From Aldrovandia affinis (lineage: Eukaryota; Chordata; Actinopteri; Notacanthiformes; Halosauridae): a stretch of 64,000 bases of DNA. The notes under the pieces were generated by a model that worked only from the letters and a program-made list of their open reading frames with translations, searched no databases and was not told the DNA's origin. The stretch is from NCBI GenBank assembly GCA_029706075.1, contig JAINUG010000179.1:186001-250000 (forward strand), in the 5' to 3' direction. The position numbers and the translations under genes were made by a program. Below are positions 10,746 through 54,197 of the stretch, in pieces. How positions within the stretch are numbered: the stretch's first letter is position 1; every line of letters begins with the position of its first letter.

Positions 10746-12130
10746 CACGTCATAGGAATATAAGACCTAAAGAACATAATAATACCTAATGACGAGAACA
10801 GGCCATTTGGCCCATCTAGGCTTGTCATGTCCTAGTCTAAAGACTATTCAGTACTGCATCAACCCTGGACTTGAATATCCTAAGTGTTTCTGCCTCAACT
10901 ACCTGAACAACCAATTAATTTACAACTGTGCCCTCTTGTTCTGCTAAACTGACTGTTTTTGTTACTCCCTTTTTGACTTTAACCTCAATAAAATCCCCAA
11001 TTATTCTGAGATTGCTAAACTTGAATAAACAAAGCATAATAACTATTCCTTTCATACCAGTTACCAATTTAGTTCCCGTCTTTGTACTATTTCAAGAGCT
11101 TTGATATCTTTCTTGTCATGTGGTGCCAGGAAATGTACACAGTACTCTAAGTGAGGTCTCCCAAAGGCAATATATAACATCAATATAACCTCCTTCAATC
11201 TATACAAAATACTTTTTGCTATATATCCAAGCATTCTGTTTGTCTTTTTCACTGCTACACCACACTCCTTAGACATGGATATACTTTGATCAACTACAAC
11301 TCAAATTGAACACATTCTAATTTCACACAGTCTTATATTTTTATTTTCCACATGTATAACTTTACATTTAGCAATATTTGAATATCATCTGCCATATTTC
11401 TTCTCATTTTTACATTTTGTTTAAATCATCTTAGATTGCATTAGTTGATTACAAACTGTTTTCTAAACCTCCAAGTCTTGTGTTATCCATAAATTTAACT
11501 ATTTTGATACTAACATTCCTATCAAGACATCTCATTTACATAAATAAGGAAAAGCAGAGGTCCCAGCACTGATCGCTGTGGGACTCCACTGCCCACAGCA
11601 CCTAGGTAAGATACAACCCCCACTCCTGTTACTCTTTGTATTCGAGACTGTTTCACGTAGTAATTCCTACTGAATTCCTTTTCACAATAAGCATGTCATA
11701 TGATACCTTGTCAAAGGTGTTTTTTGAAAGTCCAAATATATAATATCATAAGCTTGGTTCAAGTCGAAACACTTTTTAGCTTGCTCGAAGAAGTCAAGGA
11801 GATTTGTTAGGCATGACCTGCCCCGGAAAAAAACTATGTTGGCTATCCCTTGAAATACTATTATTTTTCAGGAATAATTTTAACTTGCACCTAATAATAC
11901 TTTAGGGCCAACATAGAGTATTTTACATGAGATGCATGAATGATGCATGATGAAGTTTCATTGTGAGACCTATAGTTCCCTGGTCCAGTACTACCAATAC
12001 AACCTTTCTTCCAATCATCTGGTATATTTACAGTGTTATGGGATTGCATAAAATATCTGTCAATGGTTCAGAAATAATTTCCCCAAGATCGTTGATTACT
12101 CTAGGATATATGTCATCGGGGCCTTATTTG
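10746..12130 (-). mobile_element. CR1-type LINE, 3' half (pseudogene)
   Basis: Minus-strand translation (broken by many stops) shows 'YIPRVINDLGEII' at the right end. It continues with 'FRGRSCLTNLLDFFEQAKK' and 'YDIIYLDFQK' (RT fingers/palm), then 'AVKKTNRMLGYIAKSI' / 'GRPHLEYCVHFLAPH' / 'DIKALEIVQRR' (open frame 11061-11276), and ends near 10800 with 'LDGPNGLFSSLGIIMFF'. The last phrase reads as a frame through the 3' UTR 'GATGGGCCAAATGGCCTG', a well-known end of fish CR1/L2-like LINEs. RT motifs are recognisable but riddled with stops, so this is an old copy. A second, shorter fragment of the same family lies at 53757-54125. The right end is cut by the Tc1 relic. Confidence 0.8.
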
Positions 12131-45445: not shown

Positions 45446-45517
45446 TATATACAGTACCCTAAAAATTTATTCACACCCTTGATAAAGATGAACAAAGAAG
45501 GTTGTATAAACTAAACA
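45446..45517 (+). repeat. Outer Tc1-like terminal inverted repeat, left
   Basis: Matches the reverse complement of 54125-54197 with few differences (AACAAAGAAGGTTGTATAAA against AGCAAAGAAGACTGTATAAG). A degenerate direct copy of the extreme terminus, CAGTACCTTCCAAAATTATA, recurs at 45851, just outside the long arm. Confidence 0.75.
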
Positions 45518-45977
45518 ATAAATCATTTTGTGAATAATTTCTGTATGTATACCAGAGCTGAAAAATATTCCTATGTATATTTATATCATTGTTTAGCATG
45601 CATGAAACACAACGGCTAGGATAATTAAATGCTTTGAGCAGCTTTGCAGGGCGACAGAGTTGGTTCAACCTGGCTTGTATTGTAATGTTCCTGCATTGTT
45701 TTTGATGTGAGCCAACCATTTAAGCCTTCAAAATCAGCTTCTGTTGGAAACAATACAGCTTTCAAATGAGTGATCATTTTGTCAAGATGCAACTGTAAAA
45801 TCTGTACTGACAGTATACATTTCTGGTGAAGGCTATGGCGTGCATTATACAGTACCTTCCAAAATTATAGTATATACTCATGAATGCATCATGAACTAGT
45901 CATAATAAAGTCCTTACAACCATACCCTTCCAAGAAACAGTGCATCATCATCTGGTATAGGTCTGACCTGGGGATCG

Positions 45978-47205
45978 TATTTCTAAGAATGCTGCACACA
46001 TAATACATTCATAAGCATTGAAAAAGAATTATGTAACAGTTACAAAAAGCATTTATGAATACATCATAACGTTCCAGATATAAAGTGTGATATGGCTGTG
46101 TAGTAGACAACACAACATAAATGTGAACACCCATACATTTCTAAACCTTCCTTTTTTCAGAAAATATTGTAGAACACACAAATGTTCCCCCATTAATAGT
46201 ACAGCTCCATCTGCTTTTAGATGCACTTACCTTGTCTCACAAAACATGAGAAAACAGGCCACTGAAGTCACTTCCCAGTGATGCACATACAGTACTGAAA
46301 ATCACTGCTCTCTATTGATGGTATGCTGTAGGGATCACTGTGTAGCTGTTCACAACAGATTGTGATACTGAACATACAGATAAGCAGCAGGTGCTGCAGG
46401 AATGTAACTTGGGTTTGGAAGCTGGAGGGCTCCTGTCATAACTGCCGCAATACTGTTGTACACTTACACCTGGTACGGAACTCAGATGAACCACTTCAAC
46501 AGACCAGCAGTGGTAATGTGAGGGATATTTCCAACTGTGCAAAAGTCACTTTAAATAAGAGTGATAGAAAAGCTAAACTGATTAATAGCTGTTATTATAA
46601 TGACAAAGGCCAATGTCACTGTACATTTGGAATGCAATAGCATGACTTGACTGCTTAATGTGCATATAAAAACATTGTCAATATGAAAGGATTTGACATG
46701 AGGCTTTGTAATATATACATCAAGGCTTCGTGAATTAATTTGATGTAGTTAATGTAAAATCATGACCATTTTACCTTTCATAATAGATTTATAAACAATT
46801 ATGTGCAGTAATAAGCTATACAGTTTGACATGGGGCTTCATAATACATTCATTAAAGAGTCTTAAATTAATTTGATGTAGTTCATGTAAAGTCATGACCA
46901 TTTACCTTTCATAATGCATTTACAAGTGAAACAACACAGTAATAGTAAAAGCATTCGAAAGTATTTATTTTTATAGAATGAATATGTGCATACAAGGATG
47001 GGCCTAGCATGAATGACATTGAAGACCCTGCATCATCAAAGGCTTTTTCACAGCTGCCTTTATGGTATTCAAAAATAAAAATTATAATAAAAATATGAAA
47101 CAAAAATGACAACATTTTCTGATACAAATAACTTAACTTTTTTCCTCAAGGCTCATTTGGTAAACAAATTTAAGCCTACATTTACTTAATGGGAAGCAGT
47201 GTTTT
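45978..47205 (+). repeat. Long inverted arm, left
   Basis: Inverted copy of 52632-53757. Matches run from GTATTTCTAAGAATGCTGCA at the outer side to ATGGGAAGCAGTGTTTTGC at the inner side, with about 90% identity by eye and a few indels. It contains two related direct units of about 100 bp (46690-46795 and 46826-46925: TTTGACATG.GGCTT...AATTAATTTGATGTAGTT.ATGTAAA.TCATGACCATT). The arm has an open frame (46362-46640) that survives in the partner arm as 53187-53462, probably because the arms are similar and not because it is a gene. Confidence 0.88.
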
Positions 47206-47248
47206 GCTGAAATGCATGCTTTGCTCTCTGGCCTTTTTCTTCAAGCAT

Positions 47249-47655
47249 TTATTTGGTGTACTTTTTTATGTCATGGAACAGATGAACAAGCACACCTTCA
47301 ATGTGACTGTTGGCAGGCCAGTGTTTCCATTCGATGCAGCAAAGGTTTGCTTTGAGTAATTTGGGGCTGTTCTTCCCCCTGTGGTGCCATATTTCCGCCT
47401 TGCATGTTTGCCAGGCCTTTTCCAAGTGTTGGGTGTGTGCTCCAGTATCAGGGTTGACACATTTTTATTTATTTTTATAAAAATATATATAAAAATATGA
47501 TTTACACATATAATTGTGTTCCCTCCTCTGATGTAATGGTGAATTATTGGCAAAAGATGTTGTCCGGATCTCCTCTGCACCAACTTCAGGATGGGCCTTC
47601 GGACCTCACCTTGAACCCCCAGCATGCCAAAGACCCTGTGGAGGGCGTCGGTCTC
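47249..47655 (-). pseudogene. Merlin (IS1016/IS1595-type) transposase relic
   Basis: Block 1 (about 47503-47652, minus) reads 'ETDALHRVFGMLGVQG', 'EVRRPILKLVQRRSGQHLLP' and 'IIHHYIRGGNTII'. This matches the DDE core of Merlin transposases (VEIDES...WVFG.VE, ...DRSA.TLLPII..HI.PGTTI.SD.W), except that the SD.W block with the second catalytic Asp is not found. Block 2 (47249-47457, another frame) reads 'NPDTGAHTQHLEKAWQTCKA', 'EIWHHRGKNSPKLLKANLCC', 'IEWKHWPANSHIEG' and 'VLVHLFHDIKKYTK' followed by a stop. This is the Merlin C-terminus (VDP.TGAHTQ.IE..W...K...RHRGN.TE.LL..HL..IEW). The 50 bp of AT-rich DNA between the blocks replaces the W.AY...H..V region. The stop lies about 45 bp inside the left arm. 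N-terminal exons were not found. Confidence 0.78.
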
Positions 47656-47749
47656 GGCAACATGGGAGTGGCAGGGTTGCCTTTGTCTTTCCATGTTGTG
47701 GAGGCCTTTGGAGCAGGGACACTTTCCGGGGGTAGGTTTGGCACTCTCA

Positions 47750-49012
47750 CAGGGTGTGAGAGTGAACTGTTGCCCGGAAGGTTGCTCCAAAGGTCATAAT
47801 TGATTTGATTATTATTTAATTGGTCATTGATGTGGAATTCAATTGACTGATTGGGTTTGTGTGTGAGAATGTGAATTGTTTGGTGTTGAGCGATTGTGAT
47901 TGGGTGAGTGAATGATAGACGGGTGATTGCCTCACGAGTCCCACCTGAGCTAGGCAGAAAATAAGCCTATTTAAGAGCAGGTGGGGCGAGTGGGGAATCA
48001 GTTTGTCTTTGTCTTGAGCTGTGTGTATTGGAGGGTGTTAGTTGTGTCATTATGTGTGCGTATTAAGAGTTACTCTTTGTCTGGTCGTTCGTGTGTGAGT
48101 GAGTGTGCACGTATATTGTGGATTATTGTGGAGTGTTTGATGTTTGATGTGACTGTCGGGCATGGTGGCGCGTGTCTGTATCCAAGCTTCTGGGAGGCGG
48201 AGTCTGTGTGGAGTTTATGTTGAGTTCTGTGCGCGTTTGTTGAAAGTGACTGAGTAGAGTGCTTCCTGTGTGAGTGGGAGAGAGGGCGCCCTGAAAGAGG
48301 GTCTGCCTCTCGCCCTCGGTGTCATTGGAGAACTCGAACTAGGGCAGTGGAGAGTGTTTCTGGACAACGGCCCGAGAACTCTCACTGAAAGAGTGGTGAG
48401 TGTCTCGGGGCTGGTTGAAGGGGAACTCTCACTGTGAGGAGTTGCAAGGGTCTCTGTGTGTTTGGGGTAAGAGAACTCGGACTGGAAAGTTTGAGTGTCT
48501 CTGTATGCATGGGTTTGGGAAGCGCTTGAAAAGTCAGGGGATATGTGTGCCTGGGGAGGTTCTAGGGGAACTCCGGTCTGAGGAGGCGCGGTGTCTTGAG
48601 ATGTGTGTGTCGGGACAGTGCGTAGAGTTCTACCCTGTCCCGGTGAGTGTTGTGTGTTTAATGTGAATGTATGAAGGCGGTGTAGAAAGCCGCTGACTGT
48701 CTGTGTTGTGTGTTCCCGGAAAGGGGATTCCCCCCTCGGAGGTGGCGGGCTTTCGTTGAGTTTTGATTATTTTAGTTTCTTATTTTAGTAAATTTTTTCT
48801 GCCCGAAAGCTTCGCGGCAAGTAGGGTGAAGAGTTTGTGTTTGTTTTATTTTAGCCTGCTCTCCCACTGTCTCTCTCCCGTCTGGGGGGGAGAGACCGGA
48901 AAAAAATAAAGATCCGGTCCGTAGACCGGCAAAACACCACTCCTCTGCCAGTTATTTCCATCGGCTGCTCTGCTCCAGTCCAGGGATTGTCATGTGGCGT
49001 GTGACAGACCCA
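47750..49012 (+). mobile_element. LTR-like sequence
   Basis: A G/T-rich segment with a TATA-like GCCTATTTAAGAGC near 47965, repeated GGGAACTCTCACTG-type phrases, a poly(A)-like GAAAAAAATAAAGATCC near 48899 and a TGTGACA end near 49007. The order is that of an LTR. Neither the left boundary nor a partner LTR is seen. It lies between the Merlin relic and the gypsy pol relic and may or may not belong to the latter. Old and incomplete. Confidence 0.4.
48155..48235 (+). ncRNA. 7SL (SRP RNA) Alu-domain-like fragment
   Basis: GTCGGGCATGGTGGCGCGTG, TCTGTATCCAAGCTTCTGGG and AGGCGGAGTCTG closely resemble the first 50 or so bases of vertebrate 7SL RNA (GCCGGGC.YGGTGGCGCGTGCCTGTA.TCCCAGCT.CTGGGAGGC.GAG), followed by weaker similarity (GTTGAGTTCTGTGCG). 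Only the Alu-domain 5' part is present and no 3' domain follows, so it is a fragment, not a functional SRP RNA gene. The match is from memory of the 7SL sequence. Confidence 0.62.
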
Positions 49013-49424
49013 TGTTCGCTTCCAGCACCAGGTGGAACACACCGTCCCGTTGTACTGGATATAAACAAACTCTGTAAACTCAAAATGCAAATAGGTTGTG
49101 AACAGTATATTTTCCAACTTGTTAAGGTATACACAAACTATGTCAGTTTAAATGAAGAAAAGCACAGGAAAAACTATATGTCAAACATACTCAATATCTT
49201 CTACAGCGGCATGTGTTTTCTACTTTAACAAGCATCTTTGCGCACCTTTCTTTTATGAGCAATTTGCTGGGACCGTCCAGATGCACACCTGAGTGACGTA
49301 CAACTTATAAGTAATTTTTGCCCTGAGTGTCCATTTTGCCCTGAGTGTCCATTTTGCTATTTTATATATATAATATATATTGTGGTAATCCAGGAATGGG
49401 CCTGAGTGCCACCTGCGTACAGTG
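49013..49424. other. Unassigned interior of the composite
   Basis: Contains a 20-bp perfect tandem duplication (TTGCCCTGAGTGTCCATTTT) at about 49318-49357 and an (AT)n patch at 49364-49380. No gene recognised. It could be remaining Merlin-element interior. Confidence 0.4.
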
Positions 49425-51885
49425 ACCTCCAGGCGGTGTTCAGCAGGCAACATGCATCCACTCTGCAACCTCACCGTCCGTAGGACTGCGCCATCGATCT
49501 GCTGCCGGGAACCAGTCGCCCCCGGGGCAAGATCTTTTCATTGTCCAGGACCGAGTCAACAGCAATGAGTAACTACATCCGGAAGGCGCTCGCCACTGGG
49601 CACATCCGTCCTTCCACCTCGCCAGCGGGAGCGGGGTTTTTCTTTGTGGGGAAGAAGGATTGACTACCGAAGGCCTCAACAGCATCACAGTGAAGAACAG
49701 GTACCCTCTGCCCCTCATGTCCACGGCATTCGAGATGCTCCAAGGCACCACCATCTTCTCCAAACTGGACCTCCAGTGTGCATACAACCTGGTGCGCATT
49801 CACGAGGGGGACGAGTGGAAGACCACCTTCAACACGCCGACCGGGCACTACAAGTACCTTGTCTTGCCGTTCGGGCTTTCCAACAGCCCGTCGGTTTTCC
49901 AGGCACTCATTAACGACCTGTTGAGAGAGGCGCTCAACCGCTTTGTGTTTGTATATCTGGACGACATCCTCATATTCTCCAGGAACACGAACAACACGTG
50001 CGTCATGTCCTCCAGCTGCTCCTGTGGAACCAACTCTACGTTAAGCTGGAGAAGAGCGAGTTCCATACTTCCACTGTCACATTCTTGGGATTTATCTTAC
50101 ATGGAGTCCCCATCAAGACACAAACAGTTCGCCACTGGCCATGCCCCGTCTCGGTCAAACAGGTGCAACGCTTCCTAGGCTTCGCCAACTTTTACCAGCG
50201 ATTCATCCGGGACTTCAGAACAGTGGCAATCCCACTCACCAACCTGACCCGGGGAAAGGCCAAAGAATTTGTCTGGACACCCGAAGCCAAACAAGCCTTC
50301 CTGCACCTCAAGCAGTGCTTCACCTCGGCACCCGTCCTGATGATTCCGGACCCATCTCTGCCCTTCGTGATCAAGGTAGATGCGTCCAACATGGGCATCG
50401 GTCTGTTCTCTCTCAACGACTGAAACCAGATAACAAGCTCCACCCATGCGCCTTCCTGTCACACCGCTTGATGCCTACCGAGCGCAACTACGATGTCGGG
50501 GACCACGATTTGCTGGCCATGAAGAAAGCTCTGGAGGAGTGGCGTCATTGGCTGGAGACCATAAGAATCTGGAATACCTCCAGCAGGCTAAGAGGTTGAA
50601 CTCCTGTCAAGCGAGATGGGCCCTGTTCTTCAACCGTTTCCAGTTCACCCTCTCCGACCGTCCGGGGTCTAAGAATCAGAAACCTGACGCACTCTCCCGG
50701 ATCTTTGAAGCTCCTGACACCGTCGTCCCAGTGGAGACCATCCTCTCACCTAGCCACATCATCGCCTCGGTCCAGTGGGGCATTGAAACTATGGTTCGTC
50801 TGGCTTTAAGAGCGGAACCCGACCTGGTTAACGGCCTGCCTAACTGTTCATTCATACCCTCGGCCGTTCGGAACCGAGTACTGCAGTGGGGTCACGCTTC
50901 TCGTCTGACCGGACACCCAGGGGTGTCTCACACCCTGGAGTTTCTTCGTCGACGGTTCTGGTGGCCCAAGATGGAGGAGGAGGTCCGGTCTTTCGTCCTG
51001 GCTTGCGCCGTGTGCACGCAGCACAAAAACCCCAGACATGCCCCCAAGGGCTACTCCATCCCCTACCCATTCCCCGCTGCCCATGGTCCCACATCTCCAT
51101 GGACTTTGTCACAGGGCTACCTCCTTCACACGGTCACACCGCGGTCTTGGTGGTGGTGGACCACTTCTCCAAGGCCCGCCGGTTCATTCCCCTGCCCAAA
51201 CTGTCCTCGGCCCAGGAGACTGTGGGACTGGTGGCCGAACACGTGTTTCGGATGTTCGGTCTTCCCACCTACATCGTGTCTGACCCACCCTTCGCTGCTC
51301 TACCACCGGGATGTCACCATTCGAGCCAGCCTCCTCTCTTCCCTGACCAGGAGAGGGAGACCGGGGTACCTTCGGCAGAGCTTCAAGTGTGACGATGCAG
51401 GCAAGCCTGGAAGAGAGCCAAGTTGGTCATTGAGCGCACCACCCAACAGCATCGTACTCAAGCCGACCATCTCCGTCGTCCGGCACTCACCTTTCGCCCA
51501 GGCCAGAGAGTCTGGTTATCTGTCCGGGAACTGCCCTTCAAGGTGGAGAACCGCAAGCTGGCTCCTTGCTTTGTGGGTCCCTTCAAAGTGGTACGCTGGA
51601 TTAATCCGGTGGCCTACCATCTCCTGTTGCCCCCAGAGATGCACTAAGTATACCCGACGTTTCACGTTTCCTGTCTTTGACCCCTGCTCGTCAGAGCGCA
51701 CACACCGCCAGCAAGGCCTCCTCCCGCTCCTCGTCTCATCGACGGCCACCCGGCGTACACCGTTCGGCACCTCCTCCAATCCCGCCGAGTGCAGTCAGGA
51801 GTCCAGTACCTGGTGGACTGGGAGGGATATGGTCTGGCGGATCGGTCCTGGATTCCGGCATGGCAGATCTCTCTTACCTGCACTT
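49425..51885 (+). mobile_element. Ty3/gypsy retrotransposon, broken pol relic
   Basis: A Ty3/gypsy-type pol region in the usual order: reverse transcriptase (with the YLDDIL catalytic motif near 49957), RNase H, zinc-binding and core integrase, and a chromodomain-like end near 51800-51885. No gag, protease or paired LTRs are recognised, so it is incomplete at both ends. The reading frame is interrupted several times (about five by eye), so it is a dead fossil of moderate age. It inserted within, or was captured by, the interior of the long-armed element. Confidence 0.85.
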
Positions 51886-51938
51886 GGTTCAAAATCCTAC
51901 AACATTCCTGACATTGTGTGCTTCCTCATCTAGATTAA

Positions 51939-52624
51939 ATGGATGACACCATATTGTCCTTATCATCTATCGACTCTTCCGTTGAATCCTCATCAAGCTC
52001 TGACTCCTCTAAGAAGAATACGGCTAAAATAATGAATAAGAAGGCTAAGAAGACTCTGTAGGACTGTTTTTCCCGCACACACTGTAAGTAACCTACTGAC
52101 CCTGGAAACACTTGCCCAGATTTTCGTCTGAATGAATGAACTAAAAAATTTTTACTGAATGAATTAACTAACATTTTTAATGAATTAACTAACATAACAT
52201 CCATACCCTAGAATGCATGCTCTGAACAATATTATTTTAGTCATTCAATAGCTTAAAAAGAACATTAACTTAAATCTAAACAATTTCTCTGCCATGTCAT
52301 AATGAAATAAATAAATGGTCATAATGTAAAAAATACAGTAGATTGAGGATATATTATACTTTTTTTTGTACTTTTTTCCTATAGTGTGCAAACCAAAAAC
52401 CATAATAAAAAGATACCAAAAAGCCCTAAAGGAGCATGTGAGTGGAAGAACAATGGCCAAATGCCTCAGCCGCTGTTGCCATTGCCGAGCTGTATATAGT
52501 TTCGCCAGAAGTATATACTGCTCTGCCCCTTTGGGATGAAGGAGCAGAAACCATCGCTGGGTTCACAGTATGCTGCAAACAGGCAATGGATGAAGCCATT
52601 CAAAAAAAATTAAAGAAATCATAA
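51939..52624 (+). pseudogene. CCDC106-like / psq-HTH gene relic
   Basis: Exon-like piece 1 (51939-52083) encodes 'MDDTILSLSSIDSSVESSSS' and 'KKNTAKIMNKKAKKTL', an acidic serine run then a lysine-rich linker. It carries a stop near 52059 before a consensus donor (CT/GTAAGT at 52084). Piece 2 follows a pyrimidine tract and TTTCCTATAG (52375-52384) and reads 'KPKTIIKRYQKALKEHVSG' then, one frame over, 'AIAELYIVSPEVYTALPLW' and 'CKQAMDEAIQKKLKKS' with the stop at 52622-52624. The phases of donor and acceptor agree. Layout and wording resemble fish CCDC106-like proteins (KRY.K.L....G.TM..A....VDRNT....APIAEL...P). The VDRNT segment is missing at the frame jump, so it is broken. The stop is about 8 bp from the right arm. 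Gene or cargo function is unknown, and the family name is a judgement from memory. Confidence 0.5.
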
Positions 52625-52631
52625 GCGAGGG

Positions 52632-53757
52632 AACACTGCTTCCCATTAGGTACATTTAGGCTTAATTCTGTTTACCAAATGAGCCTTCAGGAAGTTAACT
52701 AAAAAGTTATTTGTATCAGAAAATTACATAACATTTTTATTGTAATGATTTTTTTTTTTTTTTAAATACCATAAAGGCAGCTGTGAGAAAGCCTTTGATG
52801 ATACAGGGTCGTTCATTCTAGGCCCATCCTTGTATGTACATGTTAATTCTATAAAAGTGAAGACTTTCAATAGTTATTAGCATTACTGTGTTGTTTGCCT
52901 TGTATAATGCATTATGAAAGGTAAAATGGTCATGACTTTACATGAACTACATCAAATTAATGTAAGAACCTTTAATGAATGTATTATGAAGCCTCATGTC
53001 AAACTGTATAGCATATTATTGCACAGAATAGTTTACAAATCTATTATGAAAGGTAAAATGGTCATGACTTTAGATTAACTACATGACATTAATTAATGGA
53101 GCCTTAATGTATATATTACAAAGCCTCTTGTCAAATCCTTTCATACTGACAATGTTTTTATTTGCACATTAAACAGTCAAGTCACGCTATCGCATTCCAA
53201 ATGTACAGTGACATTGGCTTTTGTCATTATAACAGCTGTTAATCAGTTTAGCTTTTCTATCACTCTCAGTTAAACTGACGTTTGTATAGTTGGAAATGTT
53301 CCTCACATTACCACTGCTGGTCTGTTGAAGTGGTTCATCTGAGTTCCGTACCAGGTGTAAGTGTACAACAGTATTGCGGCAGTTATGACAGGAGCCCTCC
53401 AGCTTCCAAACCCAAGTTACATTCCTGCAGAACCTGCTGTTTACCTGTGTGTTCAGTATCACAATTTGTTGTGAACAACTACACAGTGATCCACACAGAA
53501 TAGCATCAATAGAGAGGAGTGGTTTTCAGTACTGTATGTGCATCACTGGGAGGTGATTTAGAAATGTATGGGTGTTCGAAATTAATTATGAATGGTTAAT
53601 GATGCATTCACATTTCACATGTCGTCTACTACACAGCCATATCACACTTTATATCTGGAATGTTATGATGCAGTCATACATTCTTTTTGTAACTTACTTT
53701 ATTCTTTTTCAATGCTTATGAATGTGTTATGTGTGCGGCATTCTTAGAAATGTGACT
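52632..53757 (-). repeat. Long inverted arm, right
   Basis: Inverted counterpart of 45978-47205. The inner end is GGAACACTGCTTCCCATTAG and the outer end CGGCATTCTTAGAAATGTGA, where the CR1 fragment begins abruptly. It carries the same subterminal direct units (52920-53000 and 53045-53130). Confidence 0.88.
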
Positions 53758-54125
53758 TTTTACACCTACTGTATATCCCAGCATTCTGTTGGTGTTTTTT
53801 TTGCTACTACTCCCAACTTTTTTCAAATGTAACGCATTCTAATTTTTCTCCTCCCATAAAATTCTCCTGTCTTAAATTTGTATTTCCCACATTTAGCAAT
53901 ATTGAATCTCATCTGCCATTTTTCTGGTAATTTCTGAATTTAGTTTAAATCATTTTGGATTATCTTAATCGATTTCAAACTGTTAAATCCACAGGTTTTT
54001 TTATCATATGAAAATGTTGTTATTTTGCTACTAACATCCCTATAAAGATAATTTATGTAAATAAGAAAATGCAATGGTCCCTGCACCGACCCCTGCGGGA
54101 CTCTACTGCCCACAGTGCCTACCTG
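53757..54125 (-). mobile_element. CR1-type LINE fragment
   Basis: Aligns with 11216-11610 in the same orientation (CCAGCATTCTGTTGGTGTTT, CATTTAGCAATATTGAATCT, CATCTGCCATTTTTCTGG, ATTTATGTAAATAAGAAAAT, CGACCCCTGCGGGACTCTAC). It covers part of the RT and thumb and lacks the 3' end. It replaces or interrupts the outer part of the right arm. Confidence 0.8.
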
Positions 54126-54197
54126 TATTGTTTATCTTATACAGTCTTCTTTGCTCATCATTATCAAGGGTGTGAATAATTTTGGAGGGTACTGTCC
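54125..54197 (-). repeat. Outer Tc1-like terminal inverted repeat, right
   Basis: Inverted partner of 45446-45517. On the minus strand it starts ACAGTACCCTCCAAAATTAT. Confidence 0.75.

Follow-up and report, generated by a model that had tools for sequence, protein, structure and literature searches.

The subject of this analysis is a window of 64,000 nucleotides from the genome of Aldrovandia affinis (assembly GCA_029706075.1, contig JAINUG010000179.1; C879:186001-250000 in the numbering used here), of which positions 45865-53752 are very probably the remains of a dead Merlin cut-and-paste transposon with a two-gene plan. In this plan, an inverted arm is followed by an outward-pointing transposase gene, an interior, an outward-pointing CCDC106-like gene (gene 2) and a second inverted arm. 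The original prediction, made from the letters of the sequence alone, had described the layout of an intact two-gene element; the outward-pointing genes between arms were found, and the copy in the window is broken and has lost its ends together with its target duplication. The broader proposal, of a Merlin family that has long arms and carries a cargo or accessory gene, was borne out, as arm pairs and gene relics recur in the genome and another copy, C113, has parts of both genes. All copies discussed come from this single genome (1.22 Gb), C numbers denoting contigs and L numbers fetched stretches; the genome searches score the best candidates only and the resulting counts are lower bounds.

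The two inverted arms pair over an inner part (46265-47203 with 53559-52632), which shows 88.0% identity in 947 columns with gaps and 91.4% over 914 ungapped columns, and over an outer part (45979-46112 with 53751-53620) with 91.0% identity in 134 columns. Each arm contains repeated units of about 100 bp, and apart from these intra-arm repeats and a 53-bp stretch at 45881-45933, which is part of the left arm, no further arm copies were found within the window at E<=1e-3. The left, transposase-side arm (45865..47203, plus strand) lacks its outer part and pairs with the right arm through its inner part. The right, gene-2-side arm (52624..53752, minus strand) begins within the last codons of gene 2 and pairs with the left arm starting at 52632. 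The arm limits given originally cannot be kept as the limits of the element: the homology of the left arm to the copies at C1756, C2500 and C236 reaches 45865/45866, and other copies go about 500 bp farther out than 45978. The left arm breaks off at 45865 and the right arm at 53752, where it is joined directly to a fragment of a long interspersed nuclear element (LINE), i.e., both element ends are lost. Within the arms, a 130-bp tract (46394..46523, plus strand) is identical to right-arm positions 53301-53430. Excluding this tract, the arms are 90% identical; when the arm mismatches were placed at random 20000 times, a run of this length came up three times; and the five other copies that were aligned across its full length have 117-120 identical bases in 130-133 columns. 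Because the tract is identical, the rest of the arms are 90% identical and the other copies differ as described, gene conversion between the arms of the window copy, perhaps with some constraint, is the likely origin of the tract. No sequence in viral and prokaryotic collections exactly matched a piece of 27 bases taken from the conserved tract. The arms look non-coding, because mismatches between the arms are not enriched at third positions in two open reading frames (ORFs) and because three of four arm readings had no match in a Pfam scan (the fourth matched only RAE1_2 at E=0.028).

Merlin elements are characterized by GG ends, target duplications of 8-9 bp and a transposase of the DDE_Tnp_IS1595 family (PMC8101967). 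When terminal sequences and duplications were checked in other copies, as had been proposed, the ends of the family were found to be mostly GG and its target duplications 8 bp long. Of the 18 ends placed by extrapolation, 12 (one being the query itself) begin with GG at the extrapolated first base, five deviate from GG in one base and the last one has GG four bases in; a typical family end reads GGTAACGCTTTACATTAACTC. At the five loci with two ends, the target duplications agree in 8/8 (C1772), 8/8 (C2019), 7/8 (C2011), 6/8 (C1502) and 5/8 (C2356) positions, and C2019 with its perfect duplication bears the transposase. Cross-locus end pairs of C1772, C2019, C2011 and C1502 agree in at most 5/8 positions (12 pairs), and random pairs of 8-mers from the window match at 8/8 with a frequency of 7.5e-5. 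The arms measure 1379 bp in the left arm of C2019 (L016 567-1945) and, by extrapolation, about 1721 bp in the right arm of C1756, which exceeds the 24-462 bp given for Merlin terminal inverted repeats (TIRs) in PMC8101967, a range that is descriptive and no strict criterion.

The transposase relic in the window is split. Its 3' part (47249..47636, minus strand) keeps the catalytic-E block, has lost the second-D block and stops about 45 bp from the arm end at 47203; the Merlin wording that had been noticed inside the left arm (VFGMLGVQG, LLPIIHHYIRGG and TGAHTQHLEKAW) is located here, on the minus strand as described. The minus-strand reading upstream of 47637 is no transposase and turned out to be an insertion resembling a long terminal repeat (LTR) at 47637-49006. 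Beyond the insertion lies the remaining transposase region (49007..49371, minus strand), which is common to other copies and has a damaged first catalytic block. In C902, C113 and C2233 the transposase runs unbroken where the window has the LTR-like insertion. The first catalytic block reads VGGPQQFVLIDESKF in C2019 and C902, and the second-D block DEW as well as the catalytic-E block HTQHLERAW are present in C113, where the transposase exon matches DDE_Tnp_IS1595 with E=7.4e-14 and 52.5 bits (cut-off 27). The window relic matches the same Pfam family with E=0.0029 (18.1 bits) in one frame and with 3.7e-4 (21 bits) in two pieces.

At the opposite end, gene 2 is represented by two relic exons. 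Exon B (51934..52083, plus strand), the limits of which were set by eye at splice-site-like sequence, encodes an acidic Ser-rich and then Lys-rich linker (MDDTILSLSSIDSSVESSSSSDSSKK...) and has counterparts in C1756, C113 and C813. Exon C (52385..52659, plus strand) encodes the CCDC106 C-terminal domain and is frameshifted with a deletion. The right-hand reading, reported to stop at the edge of the arm, does end at 52624; in another frame, gene 2 continues to a stop codon at 52657-52659 inside the arm. Gene 2 matches the Pfam family PF15794 (CCDC106) with 5.6e-5 in one frame, with 6.1e-11 for exon C, and with E=5.6e-12 (profile 73-220 of 220) for exons B and C with the frames read through. Gene 2 of C1756 matches PF15794 over the cut-off (E=6.2e-9) and its exon A aligns to profile positions 2-36 under the cut-off (E=0.041); an exon similar to this exon A, a putative coiled-coil exon, is also found in C113 and C813. 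The credible hmmscan families for the two genes are the IS1595 DDE transposase and CCDC106, with no Myb/SANT or Harbinger DDE domain among them. A PDB search with gene 2 gave no match, and neither window relic had a relative in IMG/VR, in a search that reaches close relatives only. The inner arm end repeats the final codons of gene 2 in inverted orientation, with a few differences, in five arms (those of C2019, C902, C2022 and C2233 and the transposase-side arm of C1756), reading GGGAACACTGCTTCCCATTAAGTACAT in three of them. With its final codons inside the arm repeat, gene 2 belongs to the element, and the inverted presence of these codons in all five other copies compared indicates that gene 2 was in place when the arms were last made alike.

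A genome search with the arms, as had been recommended, gave at least 22 matches including the window's own two and revealed that C1756 and C113 also have inverted pairs of arms. A total of 17 stretches from 15 other arm loci was scanned for both genes. The transposase adjoins the inner arm end in 5/15 loci (C113, C2019, C902, C2022 and C2233), oriented as in the window, and gene 2 adjoins the arm in one (C1756), pointing toward it. Between the arms of C113, the transposase lies at one arm and gene-2 exon A (from L012 1314) is followed by exon B, making the window and C113 the two loci at which a single copy contains remains of the two genes; two ORFs in the C113 interior (L011 4276-4758 and 4387-4749) have no Pfam match. 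At C1756, one arm adjoins gene 2 with all three of its exons (A, B and C), and 27 nt of the transposase-side flank are present next to the opposite arm; the interiors of C113 and C1756 align over several segments of 0.1-1 kb. A DNA search with gene 2 adds C813 and two fragments at C569. For the outer arm alone, the scoring of 40 out of 172 candidates gave at least 56 matches on different contigs. Short derivatives with a foldback structure, which measure about 380-460 bp and share the outer arm only (e.g., C1502, C2011, C335:1708704 and C2022:6930218), form a set resembling miniature inverted-repeat transposable elements. An IS1595-type transposase relic on a 16-kb contig (L035, C992:9408-9785) was set aside and is perhaps a bacterial contaminant.

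Several observations weigh against the two-gene interpretation. Neither gene was seen in the scanned stretches, some of which cover part of the locus only, at 9/15 loci (C1772, C1799, C2500, C236, C1756:7259k, C2098, C1834, C2289 and C1691), as is expected of non-autonomous derivatives. Arms alone, named at the outset as evidence to the contrary, were thus encountered in this ordinary sense only, and the other 6/15 loci carry a gene relic. C2245 has a transposase with no arm within 3.2 kb, the CCDC106-domain exon was not found in C113, the C1756 element gave no transposase coding match, and no locus besides the window shows both protein domains. No intact copy was seen in the host genome, every examined gene-2 copy of the window's family is broken, and no coiled-coil exon of gene 2 was found in the window. 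The window transposase on its own stays under the curated Pfam cut-off (18.1-21 vs 27 bits), and an NCBIfam search with both window relics gave no match. The ratio of non-synonymous to synonymous differences (pN/pS) is only mildly below 1, both for the pooled transposase (0.74; 15 pairs from 6 copies, without significance test) and for gene 2 (0.79 for one pair; 0.60 for three pairs with a range of 0.26 to 1.43, no significance test). Single-pair ratios of substitution rates (dN/dS) range from 0.42 to 1.30 for the transposase, and the pN/pS values are compatible with copies that were once under selection and have been drifting since. Three CCDC106 domains matched no helix-turn-helix (HTH) family, leaving DNA binding by gene 2 unsupported by these tools; to our eye, the CCDC106 domain (..AF..GVDRNT..) may nevertheless have the look of a helix-turn-helix. 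Finally, the gene-2 domains of the window's family and of a second, diverged Merlin family are only 20/76 identical and no closer to each other than to the host genes, which leaves a single ancient association unproven.

This second family is seen at C91, where a CCDC106-like relic at 2468988 (minus strand) and a Merlin-like transposase at 2471514 (plus strand) point outward. The CCDC106-like relic has a borderline score, with 30.1 bits by itself and 30.9 together with its neighbours against a cut-off of 30.2. The second-family transposase is 45% identical to the first. CCDC106-like relics at C1792 and C91 share 1.2 kb at 75%. A stretch that directly follows the C1792 relic recurs downstream of a different Merlin-like transposase (C2256), and similar pairs occur at C1756:4861730/4872168 and C147:2041084/2045319; transposase matches were predicted beside these two and found at C1756:4871844-4872011(+) and C147:2044696-2044941(+). 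Searched as a protein, the C1792 relic matched C1792, C1, C91 and C358, the last three over short lengths (33-39 residues). The C2256 locus (L039, C2256:1804244-1807543) encodes a Merlin-like DDE domain in an open frame of 177 amino acids, and a Tc1-like, HTH-looking segment lies directly upstream in the same frame, as a nested insertion or a fusion.

Two CCDC106 genes of the host genome (C469 and C36) gave matches in separate exons, and a further exon is found at C2200 (L028, C2200:2581240-2581542), which is stop-free and the closest relative found of the window family's gene 2. The gene-2 domain of this family is identical to the C2200 exon in 36/75 and 38/84 positions and to C469 and C36 in 24-27 of 75-85 positions. 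No close second copy of the C2200 exon was seen among the 9 matches listed, and the exon is a candidate domesticated gene. A splice acceptor lies 26 nt before an RY codon in the window, C36, C469, C2200 and C91, 24 nt before it in C1756 and 21 nt in C1792. Because this intron position is held in common with the host CCDC106 genes, gene 2 was probably not copied from mRNA; it would either have been captured as DNA or have been the source of the host genes. Gene 2 also resembles CCDC106 in its putative coiled coil (in other copies), its acidic Ser and Lys-rich linker and its PF15794 domain, and differs from it in lying, broken, between transposon arms. Transposon genes can be retained by their hosts, NAIF1 and HARBI1 being domesticated descendants of Harbinger genes. 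We tentatively consider that gene 2 was an ancient partner that the transposase required, and that the vertebrate CCDC106 genes and C2200 are domesticated descendants of such transposon genes, a scenario that we rate as possible and short of probable. Even humans have traces of Merlin in their genome (Merlin1_HS; PMC5753468). The human CCDC106 protein is nuclear; its nuclear localization signal spans positions 151-164, and S130 and S147 are CK2 sites (PMC6423756). In our judgement, these features belong to the region that corresponds to the linker of gene 2. If the domestication scenario is true, CCDC106, a nuclear protein that binds p53, is a tamed transposon accessory protein. CCDC106 also gains a testable evolutionary tie to a transposon, having been captured by Merlin or tamed by vertebrates.

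Transposons with TIRs can capture genes, and the most serious alternative is that a single-gene Merlin captured host CCDC106 as passive cargo that was never active in transposition. The retained intron position of host CCDC106 is what capture at the DNA level would leave behind, and the weak selection signal fits as well, but this explanation has to account for gene-2 exons at several loci (window, C1756, C113, C813 and fragments at C569) and for the end of gene 2 being built into the transposase-side arms of five other copies. The diverged second family with the same outward pair at C91 would moreover require two captures, which from the sequence comparisons appears less likely than one old association of the transposase with gene 2. 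Capture of passive cargo is accordingly regarded as unlikely.

Two further explanations dispense with a two-gene element altogether and are both extremely improbable. The region is rich in nested insertions (LTR-like, Gypsy, LINE and Tc1-like), such that arms of an unrelated repeat could have come to surround a Merlin relic and a CCDC106 pseudogene by chance; however, the juxtapositions recur at the independent loci C1756, C113, C2019, C902, C2022 and C2233, and the arm ends carry the Merlin-type GG and 8-bp duplications. An assembly artefact or a segmental inverted duplication with no transposon could produce long arms with a common 130-bp identical tract, but it would not produce copies that are dispersed over contigs with defined ends and target duplications.

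For the two-gene Merlin transposon, the combination of a transposase with a CCDC106-family gene suggests a two-protein mode of moving, in which the transposase would cut the DNA and gene 2 may have an accessory role. The gene-2 product would be a nuclear protein that dimerizes by its coiled coil and enters the nucleus via its basic linker. Modelled on the Myb-like protein of Harbinger, which does likewise, it would bind the long arms with their repeated units of about 100 bp and recruit or import the transposase. The arms may have grown, or may stay alike, by copying of one end onto the other, since the transposase-side arm carries the inverted last codons of gene 2. The short foldback derivatives were probably mobilized in trans.

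The window copy was itself invaded. The LTR-like insertion within the transposase gene (47637..49006) has TG...CA ends and is flanked by a 5-bp duplication (GACCC at 47632-47636 and 49007-49011); it was read as a solo LTR. Within it, a stretch at 48153-48228 resembles the Alu domain of 7SL, the RNA of the signal recognition particle (SRP), and Rfam Metazoa_SRP matches at 48155-48228 with 25.9 bits, under the gathering score of 70. A broken Gypsy/chromovirus pol fragment of about 2.5 kb (~49372..51867, plus strand; approximate limits, set where the flanks become homologous to other copies) contains Pfam domains for reverse transcriptase, RNase H, integrase zinc finger, SH3 and chromodomain and is a later insertion into the element. 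Outside the arms, LINE fragments, which we take to be CR1-like, are found at 53753-54121 and 11196-11604. Inverted copies of a terminal repeat, presumably Tc1-like, lie on both sides of the element at 45451-45520 and 54126-54195; this outer 70-bp pair was rejected as the real TIR on account of that resemblance. A foldback copy of the Merlin family at C1772 sits in the same Tc1-like repeat, with its 8-bp duplication left behind. Positions 45979/53751 and the pair 45960/53766, the latter with GG and a weak 9-bp repeat seen by eye, were both rejected as element ends, as the flank past 45979 is conserved in other copies and the right side goes on as LINE. The left flank was also considered as the missing half of the LINE, with the LINE as target, and rejected, as it does not align.

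Compared with known systems, the element is closest to the Merlin superfamily, a eukaryotic group related to IS1016/IS1595, with which it shares a DDE_Tnp_IS1595 transposase with DES, DEW and HTQ-E blocks, the terminal GG and the 8-bp target duplication. It differs from Merlin in its 1.38-kb arm (C2019), set against TIRs of 24-462 bp, and in its second gene, which is present in the window, C1756, C113 and C813, unlike the usual (not defining) single-gene Merlin. If this holds true, the TIRs of Merlin elements can reach several times the reported length. In the accessible part of PMC8101967, only an additional ORF judged to be due to chance and overlapping ORFs are mentioned beside the Merlin transposase. 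Searches of open PubMed Central papers listed neither a Merlin that carries a second gene nor a transposon that contains CCDC106, which does not show that no such report exists. PIF/Harbinger elements are alike in mode of working only, in that a DDE transposase is combined with a separate, putative DNA-binding partner. The target duplication of Harbinger is 3 bp; the element described here has an 8-bp duplication, a transposase of another family and CCDC106 instead of a Myb/SANT partner. The Myb-like protein of Harbinger binds the TIRs and allows joint nuclear import, and in fish the trees of Harbinger transposases and Myb-like proteins are congruent (PMC9179366). ISL2EU, within the Harbinger-like superfamily, is a two-gene DDE transposon in fish that encodes a transposase and a YqaJ exonuclease (PMC9179366), and it resembles the present element in its two-gene plan and differs in the nature of its second gene, an exonuclease. 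Should the two-gene reading of the Merlin element be true, Harbinger is not the only DDE superfamily in which a separate accessory protein arose.

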